Shown here: positions 13,769 through 50,669 of the stretch, one piece after another
How positions within the stretch are numbered: position 1 is the stretch's first letter
Layout of the letters: the number at the start of each line of letters is the position of its first letter
DNA from: Panaeolus papilionaceus
Taxonomy: Eukaryota > Basidiomycota > Agaricomycetes > Agaricales
Reading direction: 5' to 3'
Assembly: GCA_015501605.1 (NCBI GenBank)
Contig: JADNRZ010000028.1
Coordinates: 372,001 to 436,000, forward strand
DNA length: 64,000 nt
Translations under genes and position numbers: made by a program
The notes under the pieces: model-generated
Told to the model about the DNA's origin: nothing
Seen by the model: only the letters and a program-made list of their open reading frames with translations
The model's database searches: none

Positions 13769-16700
13769 TTATAAATCCCCTTCGTCTTCATCATAGTCGT
13801 CCTCTTCTTCATCATCCTGCCCATTTTCCCTATCTTGATGTTCAAGACCAATGAAAGCCTCCCCTAGATTCGTGAGAGTCATCTCCAATAAAGTGCCATC
13901 GGGAGAAAATGCAGCCTCGGATGCGTTGAAAGCCTTGAGCGGAGAGTGCCATTGTTTCTTAAACTTGGCAGCCAGAGCCCGCTGGTGGGCAGCACACTGG
14001 TGAGCATATGCATTCAAACCCTCCTGCAAAGTGCTATCCACCATCCCCCTCCGTAGTTGAGCCTGTGAAAGCCACTTCTTGGCCTTCCACTCCAAGTACT
14101 GCAGCACCCTTCGCATCTCTTCCTTCAAGAGGGGAACCTCCTCCTTTGCCCGCAATACCCTTGCCCGACTCTTTGCCCATTCAGCCTGAAGAATTTTATC
14201 TGCATCCATATTCTTTGTAGACGCACCCCTCCCCAACCAGATCCATGAAATCGTCCTGCCCGTTTCGCCAGTACCATCCCTTTTATCTCTCTCCTCAGGG
14301 AGCAAGCTGAAATTATCAGTTTGGCTTTGATCCTCCCTGAGGGGATTCAACCCCTTCTCCTTCCCCTCACTCTTTCCCCGCTCCTCTGCTTCAGCCGATT
14401 TCTGCCCTGCAACCCCCCCATACTTTCCAACATTGCTAGCCCTCTCCTTCTCATCCTTATCCTCATCCTCCTCGTCCTCCTCGTCCTCCTTGTCCTTGTC
14501 ATCCCAACTATCTTCATCCTCGTCATCCTCCAAACCCTGTTGCTTCAGTTGTGCCAGCTGTTCATCGGTAAGAGTTCCCTTCCTTCCTTCAGACCTCTTC
14601 AATTTGTTGGGATCTTGATAGCTTCTGATATCCGCATCGGCAAGAACCCGCAGCTCCTCCTCCCAATCCCCCCTTCCGCACAACGCTAGCTTTGCTTCAC
14701 GAGCAGAGCGATATCGCGCAGCAGCCAACCGTGCCCTCTCATGAACTCTGTCAATGAGAGCACGCAACCATGTCCCCTCCCTTTGACCCCGGGAATTCTT
14801 GTTCTTGAAGTGAACAAGCCGACTTTTAAGGCGAAGTGGTCAAGGGCACTGAGACACTGGGCAGTCCGCAGCTGCTCCTCAATCTCGGGAAGCCCCTGAA
14901 TACAGACGGTTTGTCGATGAGGAAGGGGAATATGGGAGGGTAGCCAGAGGGTACGATTTTCGGCGACATCTTCAATTGATGATGGCTCTGCTGCCTCCTG
15001 GCCTAACTGACGCTGGTAAGAAAGGAGGCCAGGGAGATAGATTGGAAGATGTTGCTCCCAGGAGCGTATTCTTGATGTAAGTTGATTCCGCTGCTCAACG
15101 AGCCCCCCAGCTTGAGACGCTGTAGCCTTCGCGACATCGATCCTTGCAAATCGTTGAAGACGGCGTCTAGGCGGAAAAAAAAAATAGTAAGGAGAAGCTG
15201 AATTAAGAGAGTGACATCTACGTACTGTGTCTCCTCAATATCTAACCCTATTTTGATAAACGCGTCGGGGCTGGTGGTATGATGGGGTGAATTGGTTGTT
15301 TTGAGACGCTCCTGTTCCTCCTCCGCGAGCTCCTTCCTCACCTCTGCCTCAGTGATTCCTAAAAAGAAAATGATGAGTAAAGCACATTGCATAGGGGGGT
15401 GGGCAGACTACCTTCATCAGCGTCATACGGGCAGGGCTTTTTCTTGGGTATGGATGGATCAGCCTCATATTGGGCGCACATCAAGCCCCACTTGTCCTCT
15501 AGCTCCTTTCCAACAGCCTCGCAAAGTCCCCGGTGAGCCTCTGCTTGCATGTTGCGGTTGGCGAGTGCGGCTCTGTATTTTCGTAGAAGGGTTGGGCCCA
15601 TGGTGGAGTACTTCATCCAATTCCAGTGGCTGAAATGGCTATCAAGCACAACGTGACGTGTTCCCCATCCCTGGGACTGGGTTGAGGTACCAAGGGGGTT
15701 ATGGAAACCCCAGACGTGTTCAGGGGTTTCCATATCTGAAAGACTGACGCCAGGGATGTAATTGAGGGAGTACACCTGATGATTGTCGGTGATGTGCATG
15801 GGTTCGTGGAGTTTGGGAACGGCAGGAATGAGGTTGGTGTCTTTGGAGATGGAGAATTCCTGGGGCCAATCGGCAGCAGACATTCGCTTGTCAAGGTTTT
15901 TAAACCACTGACAGGCTATGTCGTAGCTGATGAGCACCATCGGGTGATCTTTGAAGTCCTGCATTGCCGATCCGAAGATATAATCCATATTGGAGTATCT
16001 GACCATGAGTTAGTGTGATGTTACAAACGTTGAATGGCTGTCAGCACATACCTTTCACCCTTTTGAAGATTTCCTATGGACTGTGGAAGAACCATCTCTG
16101 ACCACCCACAAAAAGCCCCCCCGACACCCGTGTATCTCAGACCCTTGGAAAAGCGTGTGCTGGCTTGAATGATTGCTTGAAAACCGACGCAGGAACTGAC
16201 CTGTAGGCAAGCATGGATTAGTGGTGAGCAAGGAATGGGATAAGACGATACACACGTCGGTATCATTGGCGCGGTTAACGACATACTTTTCATAATCCTC
16301 CCTCCCAATCATATAGGCCCATCCCACCCCAAGTCCAGGATCTTGGTCGTAGTTGGAAACGAGTTGGTTTTTGAGCCGAAAATTGGCGTCCATCGCAATG
16401 AAGGGCATGTATAGGTAGCTTGGGGTATCGGTTAGTACTTTCGGCAGCACAGGGTGAATGAAGGGCCTACCTGGAATCCTTGTGAACGCATCTCCACCCC
16501 TCTGGCAAATTTATCCCTGGATGTGGACAAGACGGACATCTCAACCCCAACTCCCCTGGCTTTGTCTTATCTGGACCCCCTGCGTCATGGGCCCTTCCTC
16601 CCCACTTCAACAGCATGAGATGGCGCCATTGGAGCGTCATCCGGAAGAGCTCGCGGTAACGAGAACGAAAGGTTTTGAGACCCGTGTTGTCAGTCAGCTT

Positions 16701-18407: not shown

Positions 18408-19720
18408 CACATAGGTAAGCTATGCATCAAGAACTGAGTTAATCCATGGAATTATGAAAAGGCAAGAACTGAGTTGGGTCTATGGAATCTGTGGAATTGT
18501 GCAGTTGGGTGGTAGGTGGGTAGGGAGGGTAGCGGGTGGTGGGCAGGTAGTGGTGGGCAGGTATCGGGTGGGTGGTAGGTAGATAAGTATCGGGTGGGTG
18601 GTAGGTAGGTAGGTGGATAGCGGGTGGGCAGCAAGCAGGCAGGTGGTGGGTAGGTGGGTAGATGGCGGGTGGTAGGGTAGGTGGGTAGGTAGCGGTTGGG
18701 AGGTAGGTAGGTAGCGACAGGTGGTAGGTAGGTAGCAGGTGGCAGGGAGCAGGCGTGTGGGCTGCGACGGATGGTAGGTAGCGGGTGGTAAATGGCCAGC
18801 GAGCAGGTGCGTGGTGGGTAGGTAGCGGGTGGTAGGTAGGTGGGTAGATGGGTAGATGGTAGGTAGGTGGGTAGGTGGGTAGGTAGCGGGTGGACAGCGA
18901 GCAGGCGAGTCAGTGGGAAGTAGAAGGTAGCGGGTGGTAAATGAGGAGCGAACAGGCGGGTGATGGGTAGTTAGCGGGTGGTTGGTAGGTGGTGGGTAGG
19001 CAGGTAGGTGGGTAGGTAGGTAGTAGGTCGTAAATGCGCAGCGAGCAGGCGGGTGAGTGGGACAGTGAATAACAAACAAGCAGTGGTTGTTAGGCGTAGC
19101 AGGCGAAGTTGATAATCCGTAAGCAGCCGGTTGATTCAGCAGCCGAACCACCAACAAGCACACGTGCTGTGGGATGGGTGGAAAGCGAGCAGGCGGTTGC
19201 GTGGTTGGTCGTCGTAGCAAGCGAAGTTGATGGTACATGATCATTAAGCAGCCGAATAGTTCAGCAGCCGAACCAACAACAAGCACAGGTGATGGGTGGA
19301 AAGTGAGCAAGCGGGTGAGTGGTGGGTTGCGAGCAGGCGGAGGGTAGGTAGCAGGCGGGTTAAGCAGGTCGGGTTGAGCTCATGGTTGGGGACTGGGTAG
19401 GCGAGCAGGCGTTGTGTGTTTCTTTTTAGAATTATGCTTTAAAATAGAATAATAATGACGATAAAATAGTTAATGCATGAGGAGCTGATAGCCCATCGTG
19501 AGTGCGTTAGCAGCCGAGTGTCCGTTACATGGAGATTCAAAGCGGCCGTTAGGATTGTCGCAGGCGATCATGATTGATCAGTACTCGTCGCAAGCCAGCA
19601 ACCGGTTCTCGCCTGACAATTTAGCACATTTAGCAGCATCCGTTAATAGATGGTCAGTGAGCAGGCGATAGCAGGCAGCAAAGATGGTGTTGTTCACAAG
19701 CGGGCAACCGTGGGAATACA
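18408..19720. repeat. Left inverted repeat of the 14.5 kb element (inner limit approximate)
   Basis: Begins with about 90 bp nearly identical to the complement of 32889-32800, then a GGTAGGTGGG-type minisatellite. Next is a block starting ATGAGGAGCTGATAGCCC that has a clear diverged counterpart on the right arm at about 31880-32030. Confidence 0.75.
18496..19380. repeat. GGTAGGTGGGTAGCGGGTGG-type minisatellite
   Basis: Irregular arrays of GGTAGGT, GGGTAGCGGGTGG and GAGCAGGCGGGTG units. The long Thr/Pro/Leu-rich open frame across it on the minus strand is a product of the repeat. A complementary array lies at about 32110-32810. Confidence 0.85.
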
Positions 19721-19831
19721 AACCCGTCTTTCGATGTGTCAGGATGGTTTTTTTTTCTTGCTCTTCTTCTACAACCATCTCCAATCGAAAACCCATCGAT
19801 CCGACCGATCTCGCTCTCCTCCAAATTACCC

Positions 19832-22811
19832 ATGGCAAACTTCGATGCTGAACACTTCTTCCGTGTGCTCAACCAAGTTCGCGATCGATTGATCCCAGTA
19901 TTGACGAGCAATGACGGGCGGGCATGTGCACAAGTGCTTGCTACTGTAAATGCTGAGCGGGTAAGATAGCCATTCTCTCCCATGCGGCAATCAATGCTCA
20001 TTTTACAAAAAGGAGTACCTAAATGGAATTGTTAGCCAAGCGCGCGAAGGCTCCACCATTCCCGCGCCGTCAAACGTTGCTGGAGCAAGTCATCGCCCCA
20101 TGCATGGGTTTTTTGGGTGGGCCTCCACTTCAAGCAGCTTGTTGCTGACCAAAGGACGGAAGCGGAACAGTCAGCAACCAATGTGTCTTCCAAGATGAAT
20201 GAGTGGAGGCAGATGATGATGAATGGGGAAGAACTTCGAGGAGCGACCGAAGCGGCCGCTCCCCTTGCAGCGCCACCACCAGGAGCCTCAGTTGGTTCTC
20301 CTCCCATTGCTGCGCCTGCTCCTTCGCCTGCTCGTGCTACTGCTCCCGCTCGTGCTACTGCACCTGCACCTGCACCTTCTCCTGCTCGCTCAGCCGCTCG
20401 TCCCGCACCTGCTTCACCTGCTCCGCTTCCCCTGCTGTTCTTGCACCTTCTCCTCGTGCCCCACCTACCACGGCTGCTCTTCCCCGCGGCCCACCTGCTA
20501 CTGCTAATCCCTCCCGTACCCCGGCTGCTCCTCCCGCGCCCCCCTGTGACGGCTGCTGGCGCTCCAACTACTCGACCAGCAGCCGTTCCACCTGTCCCCG
20601 CAACGGCTGCTGGTCCTGCTGCTCGCGCTCCTGCTGCTCAGCCAGCGACGGCCGCTCCACCTCCACGTCCCGTCATTGCTCAAACCCGGCCAGCAAGCGG
20701 AGTACCCGCTGGACCCTCCATGCAGCCACCTGCGGCTCCGGTTGCCGGTGGCTCTAGGGCATCAGCCCAATACCGGCCGGCCGCTGTCCACCCACCCTCT
20801 CGTCTTACAACGACATGGACTCCTGGTAAGTATTGCAGACCAAATTGCATTCAGCAAAGCTAACTTTTTGACAGAAGACTTAGCAGGGAAAAGGAACCTC
20901 GAGGAGGAGTCGGAGGAAGAGACCACAGAAGGTAAGCAATCAGGAATGTAACAATTCTTACTTCAAATCGACCATCTTATAGGAAGCAAGCGGCGGCGTT
21001 TGGAAGGCCACGACGATGTCTCGTCTGCAAGTTCGGCTCCTTCAGGGTCTCCGGCTGCTTCCAAGCTAACGCTCAAGGGTACTAGGAAGCGGTCGACAAA
21101 ACTCGAGGAATACCCTGTTCGCTGTGCCCAGTGCGAGAAAGCTGGGAAGAGTTGTCTAAAATCCTCACAGAGCAACCGGTGCCGAGCGTGTGCACAAAAC
21201 AAGGTAAAATGCTCTTACTCACTCAATCGTAGGGAGGCGGCTGCACTGGGTGCAGCAAATAAAAAGGCCAAGTTGGAGACCATGGTAGCTGCGGGCGTCA
21301 TTGATGAAAGTCAAGCGGCCGAGTCAAGTAAGGGGAAGGGAAAGGAGCGTGCAGCTGAAGACGAGGCGGAGTACAAGCCGTCAGATGAGGAAGCCAAGCC
21401 AAAACGTCGTAAAGGTGCAAAAGGTAAGCACATCCCTAGTTATGCACTGCCAAAATAACTGAAATTCACAATTTCTTGTTCAGTCACAGTCTCGGAGTTG
21501 AACGAGGTCGTTCAAGACTTGAAGGAACGCATCATAACTTTGGAGAAAGACGCACTCGACAACGCACAACTTCTTGGCAAAAGCCTGAGTGCAATCCGCA
21601 TGTTTCGCTATGAAACCGGTAATGCTCTTCTTGGAATCGGAGAAGATCTGTCACTGGCACTGGCGAAGAGCGACGCTGGAGCGGCCGCTCCCAACATCGG
21701 CCGGCCACCAGTTTCAAAGGCCTATCGTTTGGGTCCACAGTCCCACATTGTGCAACCCACCTTGTGGGCGGCCGGTGACCAGTACATTTTCCGGGACCAT
21801 CATCAGCGCGACAAGTACCCCGAATATTTCCATCCAAGGCTTGTCTCAGTAGATGAAGACCGGGTCGCCACTTGGGGAGAAGCTCTTCCCCATCACTACA
21901 TTGTTGGAGCGGCCGATGCAATTCAGGTTCCCTACGGCACCCCAAGCGACGACCCGACCATCCTCCCGAGAGCCCAGGGTCCCAGGTACAGGTTTGGCCC
22001 CAAGGGCAAAGCTAATGACCAACCTGGCAGCTCTGCTCCTGACACACCTGCTTCTGCTTCTGCCTCTGCCTTGCCTTCCGCCAAGTCCCAGCTGAGCATG
22101 CTGCTGGGTGAGGGAACTCATGGGAGCGTGATGGAATGGGCGGCCGGTCAAATGCCTCCCGCGGCCGCTCCTGGCTCTGACCCAATGGATGTTGATCCGA
22201 CTCAACCGCATCCAACTGTCGACCCAGCACAACTTCATCTGCCGGTTGCTGCGGCTTCCACCTCCAGCCAGGGCAGTCATCAGCAAATGACCCAAGGTAC
22301 GCATCCAGAGTCGGGTGCGACAGATCCAGCTGGATCCACTAACATCACCCACCAGGCAACAAGCCCGCCCACTGAGGGGTGTCAGACCATGAGCTCTCTC
22401 AATGCCATTGAAGCGGCCGGTCATATCATTATCCCCCCTCCCTCAAATTGCTTCGACACTCCTTCTCCTCTTTCAATTGGACTCTCACTAGGGCCTTTCA
22501 CTGCTGAGCAGGAAAAGGTGGTGGACACAACAACTCGATTGGGTCACGGGCTTGAGGGCCTTTCCCCTCTGACGGATGCTGGGTCTTTCACAGAGGCATC
22601 GGCTGCAGTGGCTGGTCCATCCCATGCAACCAGTGGAAGATCAAGAGGTAAAAAGGCACGGCGAACATCAGTGTTGCCACGCCATGCTGCTGCAACACGC
22701 TCGCGTACCAGCACGCCTGCCTCTCAACTCTCGCCTCGTCGCACTCGGTCACGGACTGGAACACCCGCCTCCCAGCCTGCTCTTCGTCGCTCCGGCCGCC
22801 TCGCCAAATAG
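19832..22811 (+). CDS. Zn(II)2Cys6 cluster protein with coiled coil, transposon-borne, 914 aa
   Basis: Probable nuclear DNA-binding protein. Exons 19832-19960, 20036-20825, 20875-20931, 20983-21423 and 21484-22811 join in frame to 914 residues. Domains in order: a helical N-terminus; a very long Ala/Pro-rich disordered region (about 100-300); a basic KRRRLE patch; at residues 373-402 a perfect fungal binuclear zinc cluster with spacing CX2CX6CX8CX2CX6C; a Lys-rich linker; a heptad-like helix (VSELNEVVQDLKERIITLEKD), as often follows such clusters in dimeric regulators; then a Ser/Pro-rich C-terminus ending in Arg/Ser/Thr repeats. Known Zn(II)2Cys6 regulators bind CGG triplets, and this gene sits in an element packed with CGGCCG. 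Convergent with the next gene (261 bp apart). The target is inference. Confidence 0.8.
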
Positions 22812-23071
22812 ACTTTTTTTTATGTTGTTTTGTTGGACTTGCACCATGTACCATTTCCCTCTGCCTTGTCTGCTTTTTTCATGTTACATATTTTTCCTCG
22901 TTTTGTGCTTCTTGTTAGCGGCCGCTTATTTCTAACCTTGTTTCATACCCCGACATTTTGATTCGCCGCTTTTTTGGACTCCAATATGTTCTTATCTCTC
23001 AATTTTGCATCGTATATAATTTTGTTACTATCACGTTTGATGCAATACAAAGAGGTTGATTGTTTTAGCAA

Positions 23072-25290
23072 TTACTGAGTATTTTTTTTTCGTAACCTGA
23101 GTCTTGAAGAGCTCCTCAAATGTTGCTCACTGTTAGCTGCTGGGGTGGGCGAACGCTCTGAAAATGGAGTTGGATATTTTTCTGCAGGACCACCGGATTT
23201 TGTTGTTTGACGAGTGGCCCGCCTGGGTTGAATAGACGAATCTGCGGCCGGTACATGCAGACCAGCAGCTCCCGCTTCACCATCGATCTGCGGAATTTCA
23301 GGCATAGAGGCTCTACACGATGCTTCGGCATTCGCATGCTCGTTGTCTTCTTGTGCTTCATCAACAGGCGTTCTCTTCTTGCGTTTCTGTTTTGGTCTCT
23401 TTTTTTTTGGCTTTTTCTGGGCACCGTCTTGCTGATCCTGGGACATGGCAGCAGGCGTAATTGCAGGTGTAGGCAACGTAGCGGCTGTTGCCCCATCGAC
23501 CTGCACTTCAGTAGGTTGTATATCAGCTCCTCCACATTCGCCTTGCTTGTCGGCTGCCACTCGCTCTCCAGTGGGTGAACACAAAATGGCAGGTTCACCA
23601 TCGGTTTGCGTGATTTCGTTGGTAGGTATTATATCGGCTCCTCCATCTCTGTCGACTTCCACTTGGACTTCACGCTCTCCAGCCTTCCCCCGCCGCTTTC
23701 GCTTGCCTTGCTTGCCTCTCATTACATTCGCAAACATAGGATTGTTCTCGGCTGCTGGAATCATCACGTCCTGTATCGTTTCTTCAGGGTATCGAGCCTG
23801 CACAATTGTGTTATGTATGCCATTATACACTGCTTGGAACCTGAAAGACTTTTCAGGCCCCAGGTCTTGCTGTCGTTTGAGTGTCTCAATGAAAAACTGC
23901 CGGAGTTGATTAGGGTTTGTCTGGCGGTACGCAGTAAATTTGAAGTCAGGGTATGTCGCCAGGGGCAAATATTGCGGATCAACATAATTTGACAATCCAT
24001 TGTTGTTGATCTGAGTCCAGGGAACAGATGCACAACTAGGATCATTGCTTGCAAGGCCTGGAAACAATTATGAAAATTAATACCCCAAATATGTTCTAGT
24101 ACATACGATAGTGAGCAAGCGTGAAGGCTTTCCATAGGTTCTCCTTAGTAGCACGATCCAGGTCAGCACAACCTTCAGGCAAAATTGGGTATCCAGTTGG
24201 AGTTGTCAACATGGATGTTACCGCGGCCGCTTTTGTCGTCGCTTCTTCGCCATGTCCGGCCGCTGCAATCCCGCCTGCTGTTATCATCTTCAGATCCCTG
24301 ACATATGCTGAAATCAGGGCCGCAAATGTGCTTATTTCCTCTGTATGCTTATCCTGGAATGACTGTGCGGTGATAAAACCATACGTCTGTGCAATATTTT
24401 CTGCCCTAGAATTATGTATCAGCGGCTGCACAAAATGCAAATTTGACACTTACAAGCCAAGATTCACTGATCCATCGGCCACCTCTGCAACATAAAATTG
24501 CACAGAGGCAATTCCAAGCTCCAGTTGTAGTAGGTGCTGCGCCTGCTTTAGTTGTGCCATTCCATGTTTGGCGAAATTTCTGCAAGCAGCCGATCACAAG
24601 TTAGCAAGCGGTCTCGTAAAGCGGCCGGTGAAATACCGTTTCTTGAGATCATCAGTATAACCCCTTTCTTTGACCAATTTTCTGGCATCTTCAAATTTTG
24701 CCCACTCTGATGGTGTAGACCTGTCATGAATGTTGCGGACTGCTGCATGCCTTTTCTTCATGACTTTTATGGAAGTAACTTCTGCCTCTGGACCTTCCTC
24801 TGCTTGAACAATCTTCTTGACTTCATTATACAACTGATCATAGTGGTAGTTGTAAAAGTAATCTGACATGGTGACTCGTAGGGTTGGAAGTTGGTAGAGT
24901 TGGTGCCTAGACTTCCAGTTCCTGGCTGTATATTCAGCAATTCTCTAAGAGAAATGATAAGGCAATGAAAAAAATAATGAAGTGGGAACTTACATCTGTC
25001 CAGATGCCAATGTTTTCTGGAGCAGTCCGACCAGTTGTGTCTGGGTTGTTATACCAATATGACAGAAGTGGTGGAAAGACATATTGTCTAAGATATGATG
25101 CTCTAGCATCCACATCCCGACCCAGGATATCTCGAAATCCAACTCTCCAAGGCCTAATAATGTTCAGCTCATCTGCTGTAAAGTATGCAGAATCTTTGCG
25201 AGCCATCCGTGGCTTTTGAACAGGCTCATCCAGACTGATCTGTAATCCCTGTCCATCTCCTGTATCTGCCCTTCGATAACCACGAGTCAT
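23072..25290 (-). CDS. Hypothetical protein of the KDZ cassette, five exons, 671 aa
   Basis: Function unknown. Exons on the minus strand, 25290-24994, 24944-24637, 24579-24454, 24405-24107 and 24057-23072, join exactly in frame to 671 residues. The N-terminal 450 residues look folded (aromatic-rich: FPPLLSYWYNN, MSDYFYNYHYDQLYNEVKK, FRFQAVYNGIHNTIVQARYPEE). The C-terminal third is disordered and strongly basic (GKQGKRKRRGKAGERE, KKPKKKRPKQKRKKR), suggesting nuclear location. It starts 138 bases from the transposase gene in the opposite direction, so the two probably share a promoter and are expressed together. An accessory role in transposition is possible but not shown. Confidence 0.75.
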
Positions 25291-25428
25291 AGCACATGTA
25301 ACAGTGTTAGATGATCAGAGATGATGTGTCTGATCGTGTTGAGAGGTGAGCATGACAAGTGTGACAATGTCACAATATGTATCCCTCACACCTGAAAACA
25401 GAACAGTGACACTTAGCATCTATCCATT
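25291..25428. promoter_or_regulatory. Bidirectional promoter of the KDZ transposase and its partner
   Basis: 138 bases between divergent start codons. It contains a 13 bp palindrome GTGACAATGTCAC at 25361-25373, a plausible operator. It lies in the longest CGGCCG-free gap of the element. Confidence 0.5.
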
Positions 25429-28400
25429 ATGAGTCAACACCCAAATGTCATACCCCTTGATACCAAAAAGAAAAGAAAGAAAAGGGAGGAGCATAATATT
25501 GTTGCTTCTATGCATCCATCCTCTTCTACACCTGGAAATGCATCCCAATCCCAATCCCAATCCCAGCCTTCTCATCCCAATGAACAGAAATACTACTTCC
25601 AACAACCTGGAAAAACCACACGTAGTGGGCGCCAGGAGCTTGATCTTAGCAAAATACAGAAACCCCCTAAGCCTAAACCCAAACCCAAACCTCCCATTAA
25701 TCCTGCTACTATGCCTTGGCCTCCACCAACCAACACACATACACATGGTGATGGTGTTCACACTCACGATTATCATGCTGCCACTCTTCCTGATGACAAC
25801 TGGCATGGAATGGGAGATCGCCCTGCCTTTCAAAGCAAGGTATTACCATATTAGATGTCAATCTGAAGAGCATTTTCCCCCATACTGACATCACAAATAC
25901 AGAACCAAGGTGACTACATCAAGGAGTTCATAGACCATGTTGGAGAAGCAATTCCGGCATACATTCATCATGAATATCTTCATCCTGATAACCAAATTTG
26001 TGGCCATTGTAAAGATGACACAACTACCAATTTTGCTATATGGCGTTGCAGAGATTGCTTTGTACCTCATGCTCTCTGTCGTGGCTGCATTCGCAAGCAG
26101 CATCTCCACAATCCTTTCCACAAGATTGAGTGCTGGACTGGCAATCATTTCCGAAGGGCTGCCCTGTGGGAAGTAGGACTTTATGTTGTTGCCCCTCATC
26201 AAGATCTTCAGAACTTGTGTGGATCATTGAAAAACATGGTTGCAGTGGAGGAACAGAAGCAAAGAACAATTGACGAAGAACAACAAAAAGAGATTGCCAT
26301 TCATGTGTTCCCAATTGGTGAGTTTCTGAATTTCTGTGTAGTTCTCATCTAACTTTTGAACAGGCTTTCCAATGGATGGAGTGTCAGAATCTGGTCACGT
26401 AAGTATTGAAGCGGCCGCTCCAGCTGCTTTCAATGATTTACAAGATTGCACTCATCACTCTTGACAGGATGCCAAGTCAGGCAGCGCAGATCAACCGGCT
26501 GCCCCAGCTGCGCATGAAACGGACCAATATGCTAACAAAGTCAACCTGGCCGCCCCGGCTGCTCTCCGCAATATCTCCATGCCTGGCACTGCCAAGGTTG
26601 CAACCGAGGCTTCTTTGAAGGGCAAGCAAAGGGAGGTGCAGCAGGAAGACTATGAACGGACGGAAGCACAGGAACAAGCCGATGAGGACCAGGAGGGGAT
26701 CAATGACACAGAGGACGGAATGGAAGTTGATGTCACCCTTGAAGCTGAAATTCATGCAGACATCGAGTTCGACAAGAAAATGGAGCAGGCGTATCGAGCG
26801 CACGGCCTCAAAAATTATATCCGGCCGGAGGAGTTTCTCTACCAGCATGCGGCTGCTTTTGAGGGCCAACAAGCATCCAAGGTTGAAGTCATTGATCCTG
26901 ATGTTCGTCAACCATCTGGCTTGATGCGAGTTGCCCACACAAACGGCTACCACCGAATCAATTTTCTGCGGTGCTCGTGTCAAGGAGAGTCTAAAACATT
27001 TGGAGACTTTGTTGCAGCTGGTTTCATGCCAGCAAGCTTCTCTCAGGTCAATACACTTTTCACCAGGCAGCTGTTGGACTTTGCACGACTTGCCAATTTG
27101 GAGCTTGCAGCATCTGTGTACCAGATACATCAATTACTGGTTAGACAAACGCAGCCGCTGGGCTACATTCTTGCAGATGACTTGTATCACTTGCTACGTC
27201 GGATGCTTCGACTGGATCGTTGGATGAAGAAGCTTAAATGGGCGGGATTCGGCCACTTGACGCAAGATCCTTTAAAACCGGCCGCTGGACAGTTATCCAA
27301 CTTCTGTGCAGCATGCCCTCAGCCTGGCATTAACTTGCCAGCAGATTGGAAGAGCGATAAAAACCAGGTAGTCTACAGCCGCTCATTTGTTGCAGATGGG
27401 AACTTCAAGGCAGATCACATTTCGGCTGCAACGCGAGCAGATGAGACACCATTGTATGATGGTGGAGGCATGATGCCTCACTCTGACGCTTACAAGAATC
27501 ACATTGAAAAGGCAACAGAGACCCGCATGGTAAGCTTGGAGGGTTGTCTGGGTTGACAAGCTTCTAATTATTGGAACAGAAAGCACCATGTGAAAACACG
27601 TTCCGAGCCATTGAAGCATCCTTGACAGCAAGCAAAGTCTGTGATGTGACGGGTGTTGTTGGCATTGCATGCGCCCGCCATGGCATTTACTGTCCTAATG
27701 GGCTTGTGGATCTCTACAAGGGAGAACAGCAAAAAAATGTTGATTATGCCTTTGTTCAGGCTCTAGTTCGAACCAACGTTGATGTCAAGCAGCGTGTCAC
27801 AATTTTGTACGACATTGCTTGCCAGTATTCTATTCACCTACGGGCGCGAATTGACGGGATGCTGGCTGAGCATGGTCTGGAGCTTTTGGAAATCGACCGG
27901 GCAATTGGATTGTTCCATATCCATGCCCACAAGGACAAGTGCTATTTCAGATATTCTCCATCGTTTATTCCAGGGCTTGGCATTGTTGATGGAGAAATCA
28001 TGGAAACCAACTGGTCTGTTCTCAACAAACATTCCCGGGCACTCCGTACTGGACACCAGGTGGGTCGAGTGGAAGGGTTGGATGACTACACCAGCGACTT
28101 GAACTACAAACGGACGCTGCAAATGCCCGAGACCCTACGGAAGAAGTATTCGCTTGCTAAGACAATGTCAGCCGAACATAAGCTGGTCTTTGCAGAGGTC
28201 AGCCAAAAATGTCACCAGCATGTTCAGGCGTGGACGGCTGCTATCGAGGAGGCAGAGTCAAAGCGCTTGGAGGAACCAGCTGTCATGGATATTTATGGTG
28301 CAGATTCCAACAAGATGAAGCTTTCGCCACCGGCCGCTCTGCCTGCCAGTGCTAGCTCGGATCTTCAAGAGTATCTCAACTTTGCATTCATTGTTGAGGA

Positions 28401-29458
28401 TGCTCAGTAGGTGGTACCTGATCTATATCATGTTTGTGCACTGAAACATGGTTCTTCGTGCAGATCCCAGGTGGTGGAAATTGCGCAGAGAGCAACAAAA
28501 GACAACACGGGCGTTGAAGCAGAAAAGCTTGAAGCGGAACGCGAAAAGTTGCGCACAATGCTAGGCAAGCTACAGATTCTTGAAGCCAAGGGTGGAGTCC
28601 TCTATGAAGCAGCACCGGCCGATCTCCCACCTCCCAGTGTCACCGACGGCCTTCCAGAGCACAAAACTCTGTTCCTTCCTTCCAACAAAAATGTAAATGC
28701 TCAACAGACTTCAGTTGAGTGTGCTTGCCGAGTTCAACACCTTCAGAGTCTCTTGAAAGGCATTCGTGATCTTGTTGTTGAGCGCTCCCTCAAGTTTTCG
28801 CATGTCATGCAAAACAAGCCATCAAGTGGAGTCAAGACACGTTCGCAAGCGAAGACACAGCAGTTGGAAACACGCGTCAAAGTAATGGCACAATTGTACA
28901 GAAACAGCCGCAACAAACTTCTCAAGCTTAATCCGGATCATCATACCCTGCACATATTCCAGGAATTGAACGACAAAGATGTTCAAGCAAGTAGCCTGAT
29001 GGTCAGTGGGAATTCCACTAGTTCACGTGGGATTTCAAAAGCTTTGTCTTGGATATGGCGTTCGCGGCTGCTAGCACGTGCACCCGATCAGCTTGGACAG
29101 GAAGATCGGAATTCATTGGACTCGGTTGCTACGGAAGAATGTAGGTTCTTCGTTTACATGTTCATAGAACCCATCTCATGGTCAAAATTGATCAGTTTTG
29201 CGCGTGCATTGGCTGCGTGCACGGGCACTGTGCCAACGCTGGGAGGAAGAGGTTGAGTTAGTCACACATGAAATGGCTTGGGTTGTGCGATATTTTTTGT
29301 ATCGTGCAGAGGGTTGGAAGCGGGCGGCTCTTGATCCAAAAACATCCAAACCGGCCGGTTGCTATGCATACCGCCAACAGCATGCTTGTTTGCGGATTGC
29401 AACTCATGCAGACATGATCTTTAAAACAGTCAATTCTCAATACCAGTCACCAATGTAG
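25429..29458 (+). CDS. KDZ transposase (CxC2, WIW motif), intact, seven exons, 1,229 aa
   Basis: DDE transposase expected to cut and paste the 14.5 kb element. Exons 25429-25839, 25903-26317, 26364-26398, 26468-27529, 27580-28406, 28464-29140 and 29196-29458 join in frame to 1,229 residues with no stop. Order: a low-complexity N-terminus (QSQSQSQ, KPKPKPKP); the CxC2 zinc cluster around residues 168-215 (CGHC, CRDC, CRGC, HNPFHKIECWTG); an acidic linker; then the catalytic core with D596 (VADGNFK), D719 (LYDIACQY) and E783 (IMETNW); a coiled-coil Glu/Lys/Leu helix; SWIW near 1112; and the conserved HWLRARALCQRWEEEV helix near the end. An apparent early stop at 28408 is inside the intron starting GTAGGT. 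The second exon-exon junction depends on a 35 base microexon. It has the fewest defects of the three KDZ transposase genes here. Confidence 0.92.
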
Positions 29459-29663
29459 CCACAATCATGTAAAAAACATTCAAATCATCAAATATATTCT
29501 TTAAGCAAAGCAATATGTAAAAGTGTGCGAGGGAGACTACATGTATCAAAAAAAACCTAAAAAGTTAGAAGTCAGCTTGCGACACTCAAACACAACAAAA
29601 TGATATGAAAGCACCTGAAAACCAAAGATGATGGCGTATATAAAATGCATGATCGACCGGCCG
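29459..29663. other. Short intergenic spacer between convergent cassette genes
   Basis: AT-rich 3' flank shared by the transposase and the minus-strand gene ending at 29664. One CGGCCG lies immediately beside the latter's stop codon. Confidence 0.5.
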
Positions 29664-31618
29664 CTACTTGCCCAGGAGGGCATTTGCAAATCCATCGTCC
29701 TCGTCCTCCTCGTCCTCATCCTCTTCCTCCTCATCATCTTCCTCATCGTCCTGGTCGTCCTCATCCCCTCCATCTTCCTCGTTGTCGATTCCCTTATCCA
29801 GAAGTGCCATCTCGACATCCTGCTGGACGACTGGTTGACCGGCCGCTCGGTTAGTCGCCTGCACCAATGCCTGGGCAAACGAATTATCATCCTCTTCCTC
29901 CTCACTCTCATCGTCCTGCTCGCCCACTGGTTGTGGTGGAGCCTGCGCGGGTGCCCGGTAAGTCGCCTGAACGGCTGCAGCAAGGGCTGGTTTCAGCGAC
30001 ATTTTGGTTACGGCGAGGGCAGAAGCGAGGCCACCATCCGACTCCTCGTCATCGTCCAAAATTATGGGTGTGTCGGCAGTCCCAAGATGGGGGGGCATGC
30101 TCGACGCGAGGACCGCAAGCCCCCCATCGGATTCGGTGTCGTCATCCCCCTCCATATCATCATCTTCATCTGACTGATCAATATCGTCCATAATTTTCTT
30201 CAACCTGTCAGACCCATACTGCACAGAATCGGCCCAGTTTGGTTCTCCTATTTGCAAGGGTTATGGATTTTGATCATTATGACACAAAAACGCTCACTGG
30301 ATGTCACCGGCTGCTCATCTGACTTCTTGTCCTTCTTGGTAACTGATGCATTTGCAGATCCGGTCGGCTGCTCATTGCGCATGCGGCTCGAAGCAATTGA
30401 TGGCTTCTGTGCTCGACGAACCCCAGAGGCGGACCTCCACGCTGAGAGCGATTCCATAGGGCGTTCGGTGACAGCATCGGGTGCAGGAAGTGGCCTTCGA
30501 GCGCCCGCAAGGCTGATTGGTTTGTTGATGATGGGCGGCAAGGACTCCATGCGTGCCTGGTCAGGATGCAGACCATCAGCAGGACTGGAGTAAGGTGACT
30601 CGACGTCCTGGCCATCTCTGGCAAGACTATTTCGCATGTGCAAGAGCCTGCTTTCAATGTCGAGGCCCTCATACCTTCGCCTTGTTTCCTCCCGGTTGTA
30701 TACGTTGTCCATGCAACCGAGAATGTCGATGCCTGGAGCCGGAACCTCTGCGGGGTTGGTACTTGCCCATCGCCTGCCACGAACTCCAACGTAGAGGTCA
30801 TTCCAGTTGTCCCAATCAGCAGCCAAACAGGTTGTTCCGACATCGGGTCGTTGGGGCATTTTCCACTGTGAACGGCGGCTGGTATGGGGATAGTCGCCCT
30901 CAGTCAAGGCCGCGTGCTCTGCCATTTTGAAAGCTGCATACGATTCCCAGAACTGCGCCATGGCATCAAATAAATTGTGATCTGATATGAAGGTGGTCTT
31001 GTTGATGGGGTCGAGCGGCCGGTCGATGTTAAAATCAGCGTCCATCCACCACGCGTCCACCCACTCCACATTTTCTGTAAGCCATGCACAGAAAATAGTG
31101 TGGTCGAACAGGCGATCATCGATGCTGACTGGAAGATCTTCTTTCGAAGCAATGCCAAATGCCGAAGACAAATACGTTATGATTGGGGGGATGTCCAGCT
31201 TATGAGACCAACCGGAAGCGGCCGCAAGTCCAATATATCCCAAAAAATAACGCTTGGTATTCATCAGATAAGAAAGATATGAATCAGTATCATGAAGAGC
31301 ACTCACCAATTCATGCAGCAAACCTGTCTGGATCCAGGTAAGCCGTCTCATGCTCTCCCCAACATGTACCACGCGAGCGTAGTCCATTCCATGTTGCAAA
31401 ATCTGAGTCAAACGGAAGCCGGCATAGATAACAATATTTTGAACTTTGAAATCGTCCTCCAACTCTCCATTGCTCTTGAAATTATCCAGCAGTTTGTCAT
31501 TCTTGGTGTGAGTAAACATAGTATAAAAGGGAGACTGCAAAGAAAATGCAAGATCTTTTGTGAGGGATGTGTTATTGAGGAAGGATTGAGGATTTTTGGA
31601 GGGTGCAGCGTCAGTCAT
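29664..31618 (-). CDS. Hypothetical protein of the KDZ cassette with acidic tail, two exons, 634 aa
   Basis: Function unknown. Exons 31618-30298 and 30247-29664 join in frame to 634 residues; the intron is 50 bases. The start MTDAAPSKNPQSFLNNTSL at 31618 is preferred over the upstream Met at 31648, from the context of similar agaric proteins as I remember them. The first ~250 residues are a helical, presumably folded region (DDFKVQNIVIYAGFRLTQIL, YLMNTKRYFLGYIGLAAASG). The middle is Arg/Pro-rich and disordered. The end is a long Asp/Glu run (EEDDEEEEDEDEEDEDDG). No catalytic motif was recognised. It is convergent with the transposase, and its uninterrupted frame suggests it is still under use within the element. 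Confidence 0.75.
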
Positions 31619-32889
31619 GATGGTTATGTGCAGCGATCTGTGGATCAATCATCAATGGTGAGTGAACACAAAAGATGATCCAAATGAAGTAGTATATCCC
31701 AGGATCATTACTTCACGATTGGTAGTAGCCAGAAGTTCACTCGGCTGCTATCTCGCATTTGTCATGATCGGCTGGGCTCTGGGTGTACGAAGTCGGCCGT
31801 TGGCACACAAACGAAGCTGTGTGTATTTCCAGTTTTCAATGGCTGCACAAAAGGACGACGGCAGTATCGGCTGCGTTCAGAGAGCGGAAGCTGCTTAATT
31901 GTCAGGCGGGGCACCGGTTGCTGGCTTGCGAAGAGGACTGAGAAATCGGCTCCTACAATTCCAACGGCCGCTCTGAATGACACTCGGGTGCTACTGCACC
32001 CACGGAGGGGCTATCAGCTCCTCATGCGTTCATCATTATTATTGTTTCATTTTAAATCATAATTCTAAAATCAAACAGACAACGCCTGTACGCCTACCCA
32101 GCCCCTACCCATAAGCTCGACCCAACCCGCTCAACCCCGCCTGCTACCTGCCATCCGCCTGCTCGTAACCCACCCACTCACCCGCCTGCTCGCTGTCCAG
32201 CTAACCCCTATCCCCTGTGCTTGCGCTTGGTGCTACCCACCCACTCATCCGCCTGCTCGCTTTCCACCCTTCTGTGCTTGCGGTTGGTTCGGCTGCTGAA
32301 CTACTCGGCTGCTTGCTGATCATGTACCACCAACTTCGCCTGCTATGCCTAACAACCACTGCTCGTCTGTTATTCACTGTTCCCACTCACCCGCCTGCTC
32401 GCTGCCTATCTACCACCCGCTACCTACACACCACCCGCTACCTACCCACTTCCCGCAACCTACCCACTTCCCGCAACCTACCCACCTACCACCCACCCGT
32501 TACCTACTACCCACCACCCGCCTGCTTGCTACCCACCTGCTATCTACCCATCAGCCACCCAACTACCACCCGCCTGCTCGCTACCCACCCGCTACCTACC
32601 CACCTACCACCCACCCACTACCTACCCACCTACCTAACTACCCCCACCCGCCTGCTCGCTGCCCACCCGCTACCACCCACCGCGCTGCCCACCTGCTACC
32701 TACCCACCTGCCACGCAACTACCACCCGCTACCACCCACCCACTACCTACCCACCACCCGCTGCCTACCCTCCCTACCCACCTACCACCCAACTGCACAA
32801 TTCCACGGATTCCATAGACCCAACTCAGTTCTTGCCTTTTCATAATTCCATGGATTAACTCAGTTCTTGATGCATAGCTTACCTATGTG
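31619..32889. repeat. Right inverted repeat of the 14.5 kb element (inner limit ~31740)
   Basis: Counterpart of the left arm. It holds the diverged block near 31880-32030, the CCCACCTACC-type minisatellite at about 32110-32810, and the outermost ~90 bp almost identical to the left end. There is no gene; the Pro/Thr-rich frames are repeat artefacts. Confidence 0.75.
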
Positions 32890-44165: not shown

Positions 44166-46205
44166 TCAGCCATCATCCTCATCCTCCCCCATCCCATCTC
44201 CATCTTCATTATCGGCATCATCTTCATCCTCTGAATTCTCTCCATCTTCAACCTCTTCCAGCAGGGTACCGTTTGGAGCAACGGTTGTCTTCTCCTGATT
44301 AAATGTCTTGAGGGGGGCACCCCACAGAGTCTTGAAATCTGCGGCAAGGTAGGTGAGGTGGTTAGCCCTGGCTATGGCATATGAATTTAACGCTTCCCAA
44401 AGAGCCAAATCGGCAGAGGAAGATCTCAGTGATGCTTTGGAAAGCCACCACCTTGACTTCCACTCCAAATAAGCCAGAATCCGACCCATCTCTTCCTTCA
44501 ACAGCGTCAACTCCTCCTCTGACCTCATCGACTGCGCTCGACTCTTCGACCACTCCGCCATCAAGATCGCATCGCCCTCTGCACCTTTCAAAGCCTGTTT
44601 CTTCCCAATCCAAATCCACGAAAGCTGATATGAAGTAATTCCAGATCCATCCTTTTGGCTTCATTGGTGGGGAAGTAGGGTGAAATTGTTGGTTTGAGAC
44701 TGGCTGGGTTGATTGGGAGGGGGGTTGGATCGGAGACTTTCGACTTGTGCATCGGTGAGTGTACCTTTTCGCGGTTCAGGATTCTTGGGCTTTTTGATAT
44801 TGTCATAGCTTCGGATGTTGTCGTCTAGAAGTGGCTGAAGCTCCTTCTCCCAATCTCCGGGGCCAGAGAGCTCCATTTTCATCAACCGTGCATGCCTGTA
44901 TCTTGACGCCGCCGATTTGGCCCTTAAAAGCACCCTGTCGATAATCGCCCTCGACCTGGTACCCTCTCTCTGACCACGAATGTTCTTCGCTTTGAACTTG
45001 GCTAGCCGACTCTTGATACGCAAGACATGGCGAAGCTTCTCCAATGAACCGTGGCATTGCGCTGTACGGAGTTTCTCCTCGATTTTGGGGAGGTTGGGAA
45101 TGCACACGACGTCGCGGTTGTCCTTGTCAACCTTGGATGGTAGCCACATGTCGTGGTTTTCAGGGTTGGCAGCGATTCAGGTGGATTGACCCGATTTCTG
45201 CTCCTTCTCCTTCAGATACTGCTGCAGCCCAGGCATGTAGATAGGGAGCAATGACTCCCAAGCCTTGATCCTCGACCTCAACTGGTTTCTCATCTCAACT
45301 AAACCACCTGCCTGAGAGGCGGTAGCCTTGGCAACAGCATTCTTAGCAAATTGTGAAAGGCGTCTTCTGTAGATAAAATAAATGAGTAGATATTCAAAAA
45401 TTAAATGCTCTTTACTTACTGAGCATCTTCAATTTCTATTGCTGTGGACAGAAAGGTGCCAGCAGGGGTTTCATGGTATGACACCCCACTGTGTTTTATC
45501 CTCTCATTCTCCTCCTCTGCAAGCTCCTTCTTTGCCTGCGCCTCCATCATAGCTAAATGTGTTATTAGCACAAGTAAAAAAAAATAGAGCAACGGATAAC
45601 TTACTAGCACCTTGCTCTTCGTTTTCATAGGGGTTTTTGGCAGTCTTGGGCACTGCCATGTCTTCGTCCCAAGCGCGGCACACCTGCCCCCATCTCAACA
45701 CCAACTTGGGGCCTATATTATCGGATAGCCCTTGATGAGCTTTGCGATGCAGGTTCCTGTTCGCCAAAGCTACGCGATATTTTCAAAGCGTGGTGCAGCC
45801 GAGATCGATGATTTTTTCATAATTCCAAAAATTGAAATTGTCGTCGATGTTGTCGTTACAATTTCCCGGTGCCTGACCAGAAGTGGACTTCCCAAGGTCG
45901 TTGTTAGCACCCCACACCCGCTCTGGGACCTCGCCATCCACCTCTGCCGCACTGGGAATGTAGTTAAGAGAAAAAACTTGGTGGTTAGCTGCCTCATGGG
46001 AAGCTTCATGGAGTTTAGGGACAGCGGGGATGATTCGTGTGGATTTTGGAATAATGAAGTTGTGAGGCCAGTCATCTTCTGCCATTCGCTTGTCAAGGTT
46101 GATGTACCATTGACAAGCTATGTCATAGCTGATCAGGATTGAAGGCAGCGCCTTGAACTGTTGAACCACGGAGCCAAAGATGTAGTCCATGTTTGCTTGG
46201 AACCC
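44166..46205 (-). pseudogene. KDZ transposase copy, 5'-truncated, three nonsense codons
   Basis: About half identical by eye to the transposase at 13769-17745, colinear with its last three exons. Shared landmarks: MDYIFGS, LISYDIACQW (second Asp), ALANRN, KELAEEE, KATASQAGGLVE, RTAQC, then SWIWIG and EWSKSRAQ. Introns match in position (GTAAGT...TTTAG near 45550-45605; GTAAGT...TACAG near 45370-45421). Nonsense codons are TGA at 45783, 45177 and 44661; at the first the sister gene has CGA. A degenerate patch replaces the Glu region near 45850-45920. All exons upstream of MDYIFGS are lost at the fold-back element junction. Confidence 0.85.
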
Positions 46206-50354: not shown

Positions 50355-50669
50355 ATGTCTGCTCCACGTTCAAGCACCCGTCTTAAGGCAAAAAAAGCTG
50401 CAAGTTCTTCTGTTACCAAGCCTGCTAAGCTGAGTCCAACCAAACCCGGCCGCAAGCGTGCTATCTCCTCTCTCGAAAATTCTGCCAAAGCCAAGAGAGC
50501 CCGAAAGGGTGAAAATGAAGGGGATGAGGATGGGGATGGGGATGTTGCAATGCTTGTTGGGGACACAGGGGAGAACGAGGATAAGATGGAAGTTGATGAG
50601 GCAGAGGATGAAGGGGTGGATGATGATGATGAGGTAGAGGATGACGATGACGATGTTGAGGAAGAGGAA

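Follow-up and report, generated by a model that had tools for sequence, protein, structure and literature searches.

A KDZ transposon of Panaeolus papilionaceus combines a putative zinc-cluster protein with CGGCCG sites throughout its inner part

RESULTS

Contig 21 of the 50.85-Mb assembly of the basidiomycete Panaeolus papilionaceus carries, within the 64,000-nucleotide stretch analyzed here (contig positions 372001-436000; the window, to whose first letter all positions refer unless a contig is named), a complete transposon of the Kyakuja-Dileera-Zisupton (KDZ) group. Its inner part contains a large excess of the palindromic hexamer CGGCCG, and it encodes a protein with a Zn(II)2Cys6-like cysteine cluster; sites and protein family go together across related elements. 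Judged from the sequences, we give about an even chance to a model in which this zinc-cluster protein binds CGGCCG throughout the element that encodes it and serves there as an activator or anti-silencing factor specific to self. The features on which the argument rests are the following; the transposase gene and two further genes (genes 2 and 4) are listed below.

18410..32887, no strand: complete KDZ transposon, 14.5 kb, beginning with CATAGG, ending with CCTATG and bounded by inverted arms
18410..19465, no strand: left terminal inverted repeat, GGTAGGTGGGTAG-like arrays, no CGGCCG
32029..32887, no strand: right terminal inverted repeat, no CGGCCG
19832..22811, plus strand: Zn-cluster/coiled-coil gene (exons 19832-19960, 20036-20825, 20875-20931, 20983-21423 and 21484-22811); model of 914 amino acids, whose N-terminal and proline-rich reading is uncertain because of small indels there between the window copy and the contig-41 copy
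21123..21212, plus strand: cysteine cluster CX2CX6CX8CX2CX6C, from a six-frame open reading frame (ORF) scan
21498..21674, plus strand: coiled-coil-like segment, judged by eye from the sequence and not by a coiled-coil program; alignable in the contig-32 relative
19543..31970, no strand: CGGCCG sites at 19543, 20253, 20649, 20774, 20778, 21316, 21682, 21698, 21769, 21910, 22141, 22162, 22414, 22793, 22919, 23245, 24224, 24257, 24622, 26412, 26822, 27279, 28331, 28616, 29352, 29658, 29840, 31016, 31219, 31794 and 31965

A preliminary description had counted about 31 CGGCCG in 12.4 kb and one elsewhere in the window. The recount gave the same numbers: 31 of the 32 copies lie within 19543..31970, and one is at 50447. 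Corrections concern the extent of the element, which runs from 18410 to 32887, and the terminal regions, in which that description had placed sites: the terminal repeats (1919 bp in total) hold no CGGCCG. The genome at large is not as dense in the word as the element, with 3588 copies in 50.85 Mb (0.07/kb), and because this total does not exceed that of the reversed word (3692), the excess is local and not genomic. Within the inner element (19500-32000), 30 nonoverlapping copies compare with a mean of 1.75 and a maximum of 6 in 200 dinucleotide shuffles, and with a mean of 6.1 and a maximum of 10 in 30 order-3 Markov sequences; the window outside the inner element holds 1 copy, with 3.4 expected. 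Against 124.8 kb of background, CGGCCG is the top hexamer of the window element (31 versus 0.29 expected), and it ranks 2, 2, 15, 2, 6, and 7 in six other loci, where some terminal-repeat words rank above it. The comparison with shuffles that had been proposed thus came out positive for the window element; related gene-carrying elements share the enrichment, and background stretches do not.

Enrichment of CGG-Nx-CCG is restricted to x = 0 (31 copies, versus 0 to 4 at each x from 1 to 14), which rejects any other spacing of the CGG pair. The remaining hexamers composed of these letters occur 0 to 5 times each, apart from the overlapping GCGGCC (36), and base composition was rejected as the cause on this ground and because the shuffles stay far below the observed count. 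The flanks are also preferred, giving ASCGGCCGST, with A in 45 and G or C in 53 of the 62 half-sites. The sites are dispersed, with gaps that resemble uniform chance, and reach their highest densities in the exons of the Zn-cluster gene (13 in 2745 bp) and the inner noncoding DNA (8 in 2835 bp when exon limits are drawn roughly, 7 when site 31219 is assigned to the gene-4 ORF; about 2.5 to 2.8/kb).

The suggestion that synonymous positions are biased to create the word was borne out. The seven coding stretches tested contain 21 of the 31 sites, whereas shuffling of synonymous codons gave a mean of 3.1 and a maximum of 9 in 1000 trials. The Zn-cluster gene alone has 13 sites versus a mean of 1.6, a number reached in 0 of 1000 trials; one exon of the KDZ transposase (P = 0.011) and one gene-4 ORF (P = 0.017) also stand out singly, and the remaining four stretches, taken singly, show no significant synonymous excess (P = 0.08 to 0.35). 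Alanine codons as the cause are rejected by this shuffle and by the noncoding sites.

Co-linear relatives of the element are found on contigs 41, 32 and 3 (C41, C32 and C3) and more broken ones on contigs 24 and 43. Retention of sites was compared with that of other two-CpG hexamers in aligned coding DNA. Between the window element and C32, which are 64% identical in nucleotides, CGGCCG was kept in 5 of 10 cases versus 1 of 63 for the control hexamers (p = 9e-5), and where the amino acids are unchanged in 4 of 4 versus 1 of 20 (p = 5e-4). Synonymous excess and retention support the view that the CGGCCG sites are selected beyond protein coding. The pair CAGCCG/CGGCTG was tried as a conserved second site of this clade and rejected: it is frequent but was kept in 0 of 12 cases between the window and C32, 0 of 13 between the window and C3 and 1 of 2 between C32 and C3, and thus shows no retention beyond the control in comparisons of the window with either relative. 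It is best read as a deamination product of CGGCCG.

The C41 copy, which has an identical 16-base end, is 97.9% identical to the window element over 12.3 kb. It has lost 12 of 29 alignable CGGCCG, all by C-to-T or G-to-A changes at CpG, whereas the window copy retains 17 of 17 of the sites of C41. Over C41:87000-99500 and window 19500-31785, 111 C-to-T or G-to-A changes lie in C41 and 44 run the other way. CpG positions account for 84 of the 111; decay in C41 is directional and methylation-like. Domains of DNA methylases were found at five places of the host genome over the cut-off. A second, inverted copy lies on contig 21 itself (C21:332000-346500), about 50 kb from the window element, and is 99.8% identical over its match to 19489-24308 and 98.2% over its match to 24839-32679. 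The more diverged part has lost 6 of 12 CGGCCG by CpG transitions and the other part keeps 17 of 17; this split together with the CpG decay suggests conversion or recombination. Since CGGCCG is lost through CpG transitions, its density requires either upkeep or a recent origin.

The relation between sites and protein was followed through clade I, ten transposase places of 66 to 100% identity, nine of which were read at least in part, with all comparisons made within one genome. All nine are CGGCCG-rich, and eight contain the Zn-cluster/coiled-coil gene or a part of it. The tenth place, C3:280598, which was left out of these reads, has none of the three ten-letter words named below and no Zn-gene match listed in the genome-wide searches. 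Genome-wide, the cysteine-cluster exon matched six places and the C-terminal exon 12, all in CGGCCG-rich loci, and loci with the Zn-cluster gene have 0.5 to 2.1 CGGCCG/kb versus 0 to 0.07/kb in background stretches. When the window and another 200 kb (264 kb in all) were scanned in six frames, the cysteine pattern occurred seven times, once per element copy and nowhere else. Five loci of other KDZ kinds (L001-L005) contain 2 CGGCCG in 18.4 kb. The ten-letter words AGCGGCCGCT, AGCGGCCGGT and ACCGGCCGGT occur 32, 36, and 10 times in the genome, of which 18, 22, and 6 are in clade-I elements; together, 46 of 78 occurrences of ASCGGCCGST lie inside these elements, an approximately 490-fold higher density given an estimated element total of 150 kb. 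The reversed words occur 8, 32, and 20 times, and because the genome totals exceed these little or not at all, the clustering is the telling part.

The element-encoded cluster described before was found again at 21123-21212 and is the sole match to CX2CX6CX8CX2CX6C in six-frame ORFs of at least 60 amino acids in the window. Zn(II)2Cys6 proteins are defined by six cysteines spaced CX2CX6CX5-12CX2CX6-8C, and the element protein has this spacing. The six cysteines are invariant in all five family members compared, which are 20 to 29% identical to the window protein. Against AlcR, the two cluster halves align in swapped order, a match that is not significant, and basic residues are mainly in the second half, unlike in Gal4. 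In the recorded gene model of the C41 protein (BJ165DRAFT_1535498), the second half of the cluster is spliced away, and family searches with annotated proteins may therefore miss this family. Single-sequence homology searches returned P. papilionaceus proteins alone among the matches listed.

A sister group of 11 transposase places, 53 to 60% identical to the window transposase, was sampled at three loci (L048, L006, and L007; 10,458 bp) of two near-identical elements (C34 and C2). The C34 element has a diverged gene with CX2CX6CX9CX2CX6C and a coiled-coil-like segment at the same position as the Zn-cluster gene of the window, and C2 has a near-identical C-terminal exon. The three loci contain no CGGCCG (chance 7e-7 if the rate is that of four clade-I elements pooled). 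In its place, CAGCCG is present at 7/kb in the sister Zn-gene locus (6 of the 21 within one 18-bp repeat) and at 1.3/kb in the other two loci, and CATCCG at 2 to 3/kb in the two loci near the transposase and at 1/kb in the Zn-gene locus. The word seems to have moved together with the protein between the clades, on the small evidence of near-identical elements.

The other genes of the window element are:

23081..25290, minus strand: gene 2, no assigned function, conserved at the same place in C32 and C3
25873..29467, plus strand: KDZ transposase gene with CxC2 domain; the limits are those of conserved stretches
29760..31582, minus strand: gene 4, no assigned function, conserved at the same place in C32 and C3

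In Pfam searches, the transposase exceeded the cut-off for both PF18758 (KDZ transposase; E = 5.8e-42) and CxC2 (E = 5.8e-11); the gene-2 ORF 23072-24067 had no match and the gene-4 ORFs none above noise. Six-frame matches to TET/JBP numbered six in the genome, one of them over the cut-off and none inside clade-I elements, and a TET/JBP gene in the element was therefore rejected. Both terminal arms (18500-19460 and 32029-32800) are alike in being built from degenerate GGTAGGTGGGTAGC-like units, which are candidate transposase sites. No target-site duplication was found as a 6- to 9-base match directly at the element ends (7 to 8 bp expected for KDZ); a later inversion between the two contig-21 copies could have erased it. 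Two further KDZ transposase fragments of other kinds lie at 15620-16405 and 45822-46202, both on the minus strand, and the surrounding 3.8 to 4 kb are devoid of CGGCCG.

DISCUSSION

Zn2Cys6 dimers classically bind CGG triplets arranged as inverted pairs. In our model, the zinc-cluster protein of the element, probably as a dimer, would recognize CGGCCG as two CGG half-sites at zero spacing, preferentially flanked by A and then G or C, at sites throughout the element body. The bound protein would mark the element as self and keep it expressible, either by activating element genes or by preventing or reversing host cytosine methylation and chromatin closure, or by both. That CGGCCG is bound by the element's own protein is a likely prediction; as the outcome of binding we infer anti-silencing or activation and not a packaging role in transposition. 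CGGCCG is reported as the binding site of Rds1, a zinc-cluster protein of yeast (PMC4872168).

Several observations weigh against this model. The C23:2226 element has CGGCCG, but a Zn-cluster gene was detected neither in exon searches of the genome nor in the 3 kb read there, and all element copies come from one genome. Sites in C41 were not seen to be protected from CpG decay (12 of 57 versus 80 of 487 CpGs, p = 0.36). Retention is weak between the window and C3 (1 of 11 versus 2 of 57, not significant) and between C32 and C3 (2 of 8 versus 0 of 33, p = 0.034), and in a hypothesis-free scan of hexamers CGGCCG ranked 1st of 756 between the window and C32, 216th of 627 between the window and C3 and 55th of 680 between C32 and C3, the best p value (0.0013) failing multiple-testing correction. 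In our reading, the sites may be kept at short range and turned over at long range while their density is held. The Zn(II)2Cys6 identity given in the preliminary description stood in part: the invariant cysteines agree with it and the predicted domain matched exclusively Zn2Cys6 chains in the PDB, but none of these matches was significant, and Pfam Zn_clus stayed under its cut-off (14.5 versus 21 bits), with three of five members matching at E ≤ 1. The label is thus partly supported, by the cysteine pattern and a weak fold match.

It is imaginable that CGGCCG is bound along the element, for synapsis or self-recognition, by part of the transposition machinery, be it the CxC2 transposase or the product of gene 2 or gene 4. 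Like the Zn-cluster gene, the transposase with its cysteine domain varies together with the sites, the C23:2226 transposase is 95% identical and accompanied by sites, and cysteine domains associated with KDZ have been proposed to act in transposition by recognizing specific DNA or chromatin proteins (PMC12062965, citing Iyer et al. 2014). However, the terminal repeats lack sites and the Zn-cluster gene has the densest ones, which makes the CxC2 transposase, earlier offered as an alternative user, less likely; with inverted CGG pairs as the zinc-cluster target, we consider a role of the machinery unlikely. An ordinary autoregulator acting through a few promoter sites, with the others as decoys that titrate the protein, would fit the location of 13 of 31 sites in the protein's own exons, but synonymous excess and retention reach into KDZ and gene-4 coding parts, and this explanation is rather improbable. 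Least of all do we expect a functionless excess due to composition, alanine codons or shared ancestry: the element is indeed somewhat GC-richer than its surroundings, its copies are related, and deeper comparisons keep few sites, but neither dinucleotide nor synonymous shuffles reproduce the excess, same-letter hexamers are not enriched, inner noncoding DNA is also rich in sites, and decay by CpG transitions implies a renewed or recent density.

The best reading is that the element protein works like VANC of the Arabidopsis VANDAL transposons, for which two papers describe sequence-specific anti-silencing with demonstrated hypomethylation (PMC5735166, PMC10398659), yet is probably unrelated to it. 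As described there, VANC too is a transposon-encoded nontransposase protein whose short word is concentrated in its own family but scarce elsewhere, and word and protein differ between related families; VANC sites, however, are mostly noncoding, in one orientation and in tandem repeats, whereas the Panaeolus sites are palindromic, dispersed, and largely exonic. No VANC-like Pfam family was among the element matches at E ≤ 1; VANC itself was not compared. More specifically, KDZ elements may have captured a Zn2Cys6 factor and filled their coding and noncoding DNA with its CGG-pair site, giving an independently evolved fungal counterpart of VANC in element-wide, sequence-specific anti-silencing whose site and protein co-diverged (CGGCCG versus CAGCCG/CATCCG), a tentative proposal to which we give somewhat less than an even chance.

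The protein resembles fungal Zn(II)2Cys6 transcription factors such as Gal4, Ppr1, and Rds1 in its CX2CX6CX8CX2CX6C cluster followed by a coiled-coil-like segment and in the inverted CGG pair, but differs in being transposon-encoded, in the position of its basic residues, and in falling under the Pfam cut-off. TnpA of maize En/Spm is an accessory protein that binds a short word repeated many times within its own element and is linked to demethylation; its sites are subterminal, whereas the Panaeolus sites span the element but are missing from the terminal repeats. KDZ elements, including Kyakuja that carry TET/JBP, share the transposase with CxC2, and two Laccaria Kyakuja families share the 5'-CA...TG-3' ends; these two families are said to have no terminal repeats, unlike the Panaeolus element with repeats of about 1 kb, which also differs from TET/JBP-carrying Kyakuja in having a Zn-cluster gene and sites instead of a TET/JBP match (PMC12730594). 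In open PubMed Central text, with subscription papers outside the search, we found neither a Zn2Cys6 protein nor such sites reported for KDZ elements.

If true, our model would add to the Arabidopsis case a second one of self-encoded, sequence-specific anti-silencing, in another kingdom, with another protein domain and with exonic sites under synonymous-site selection, which would suggest a general strategy. The presence of divergent elements within a single genome offers a natural test of co-evolution between protein and motif, and both motif and domain are short and directly testable. The model might further account for the persistence of KDZ elements that lack TET/JBP in DNA-methylating hosts.

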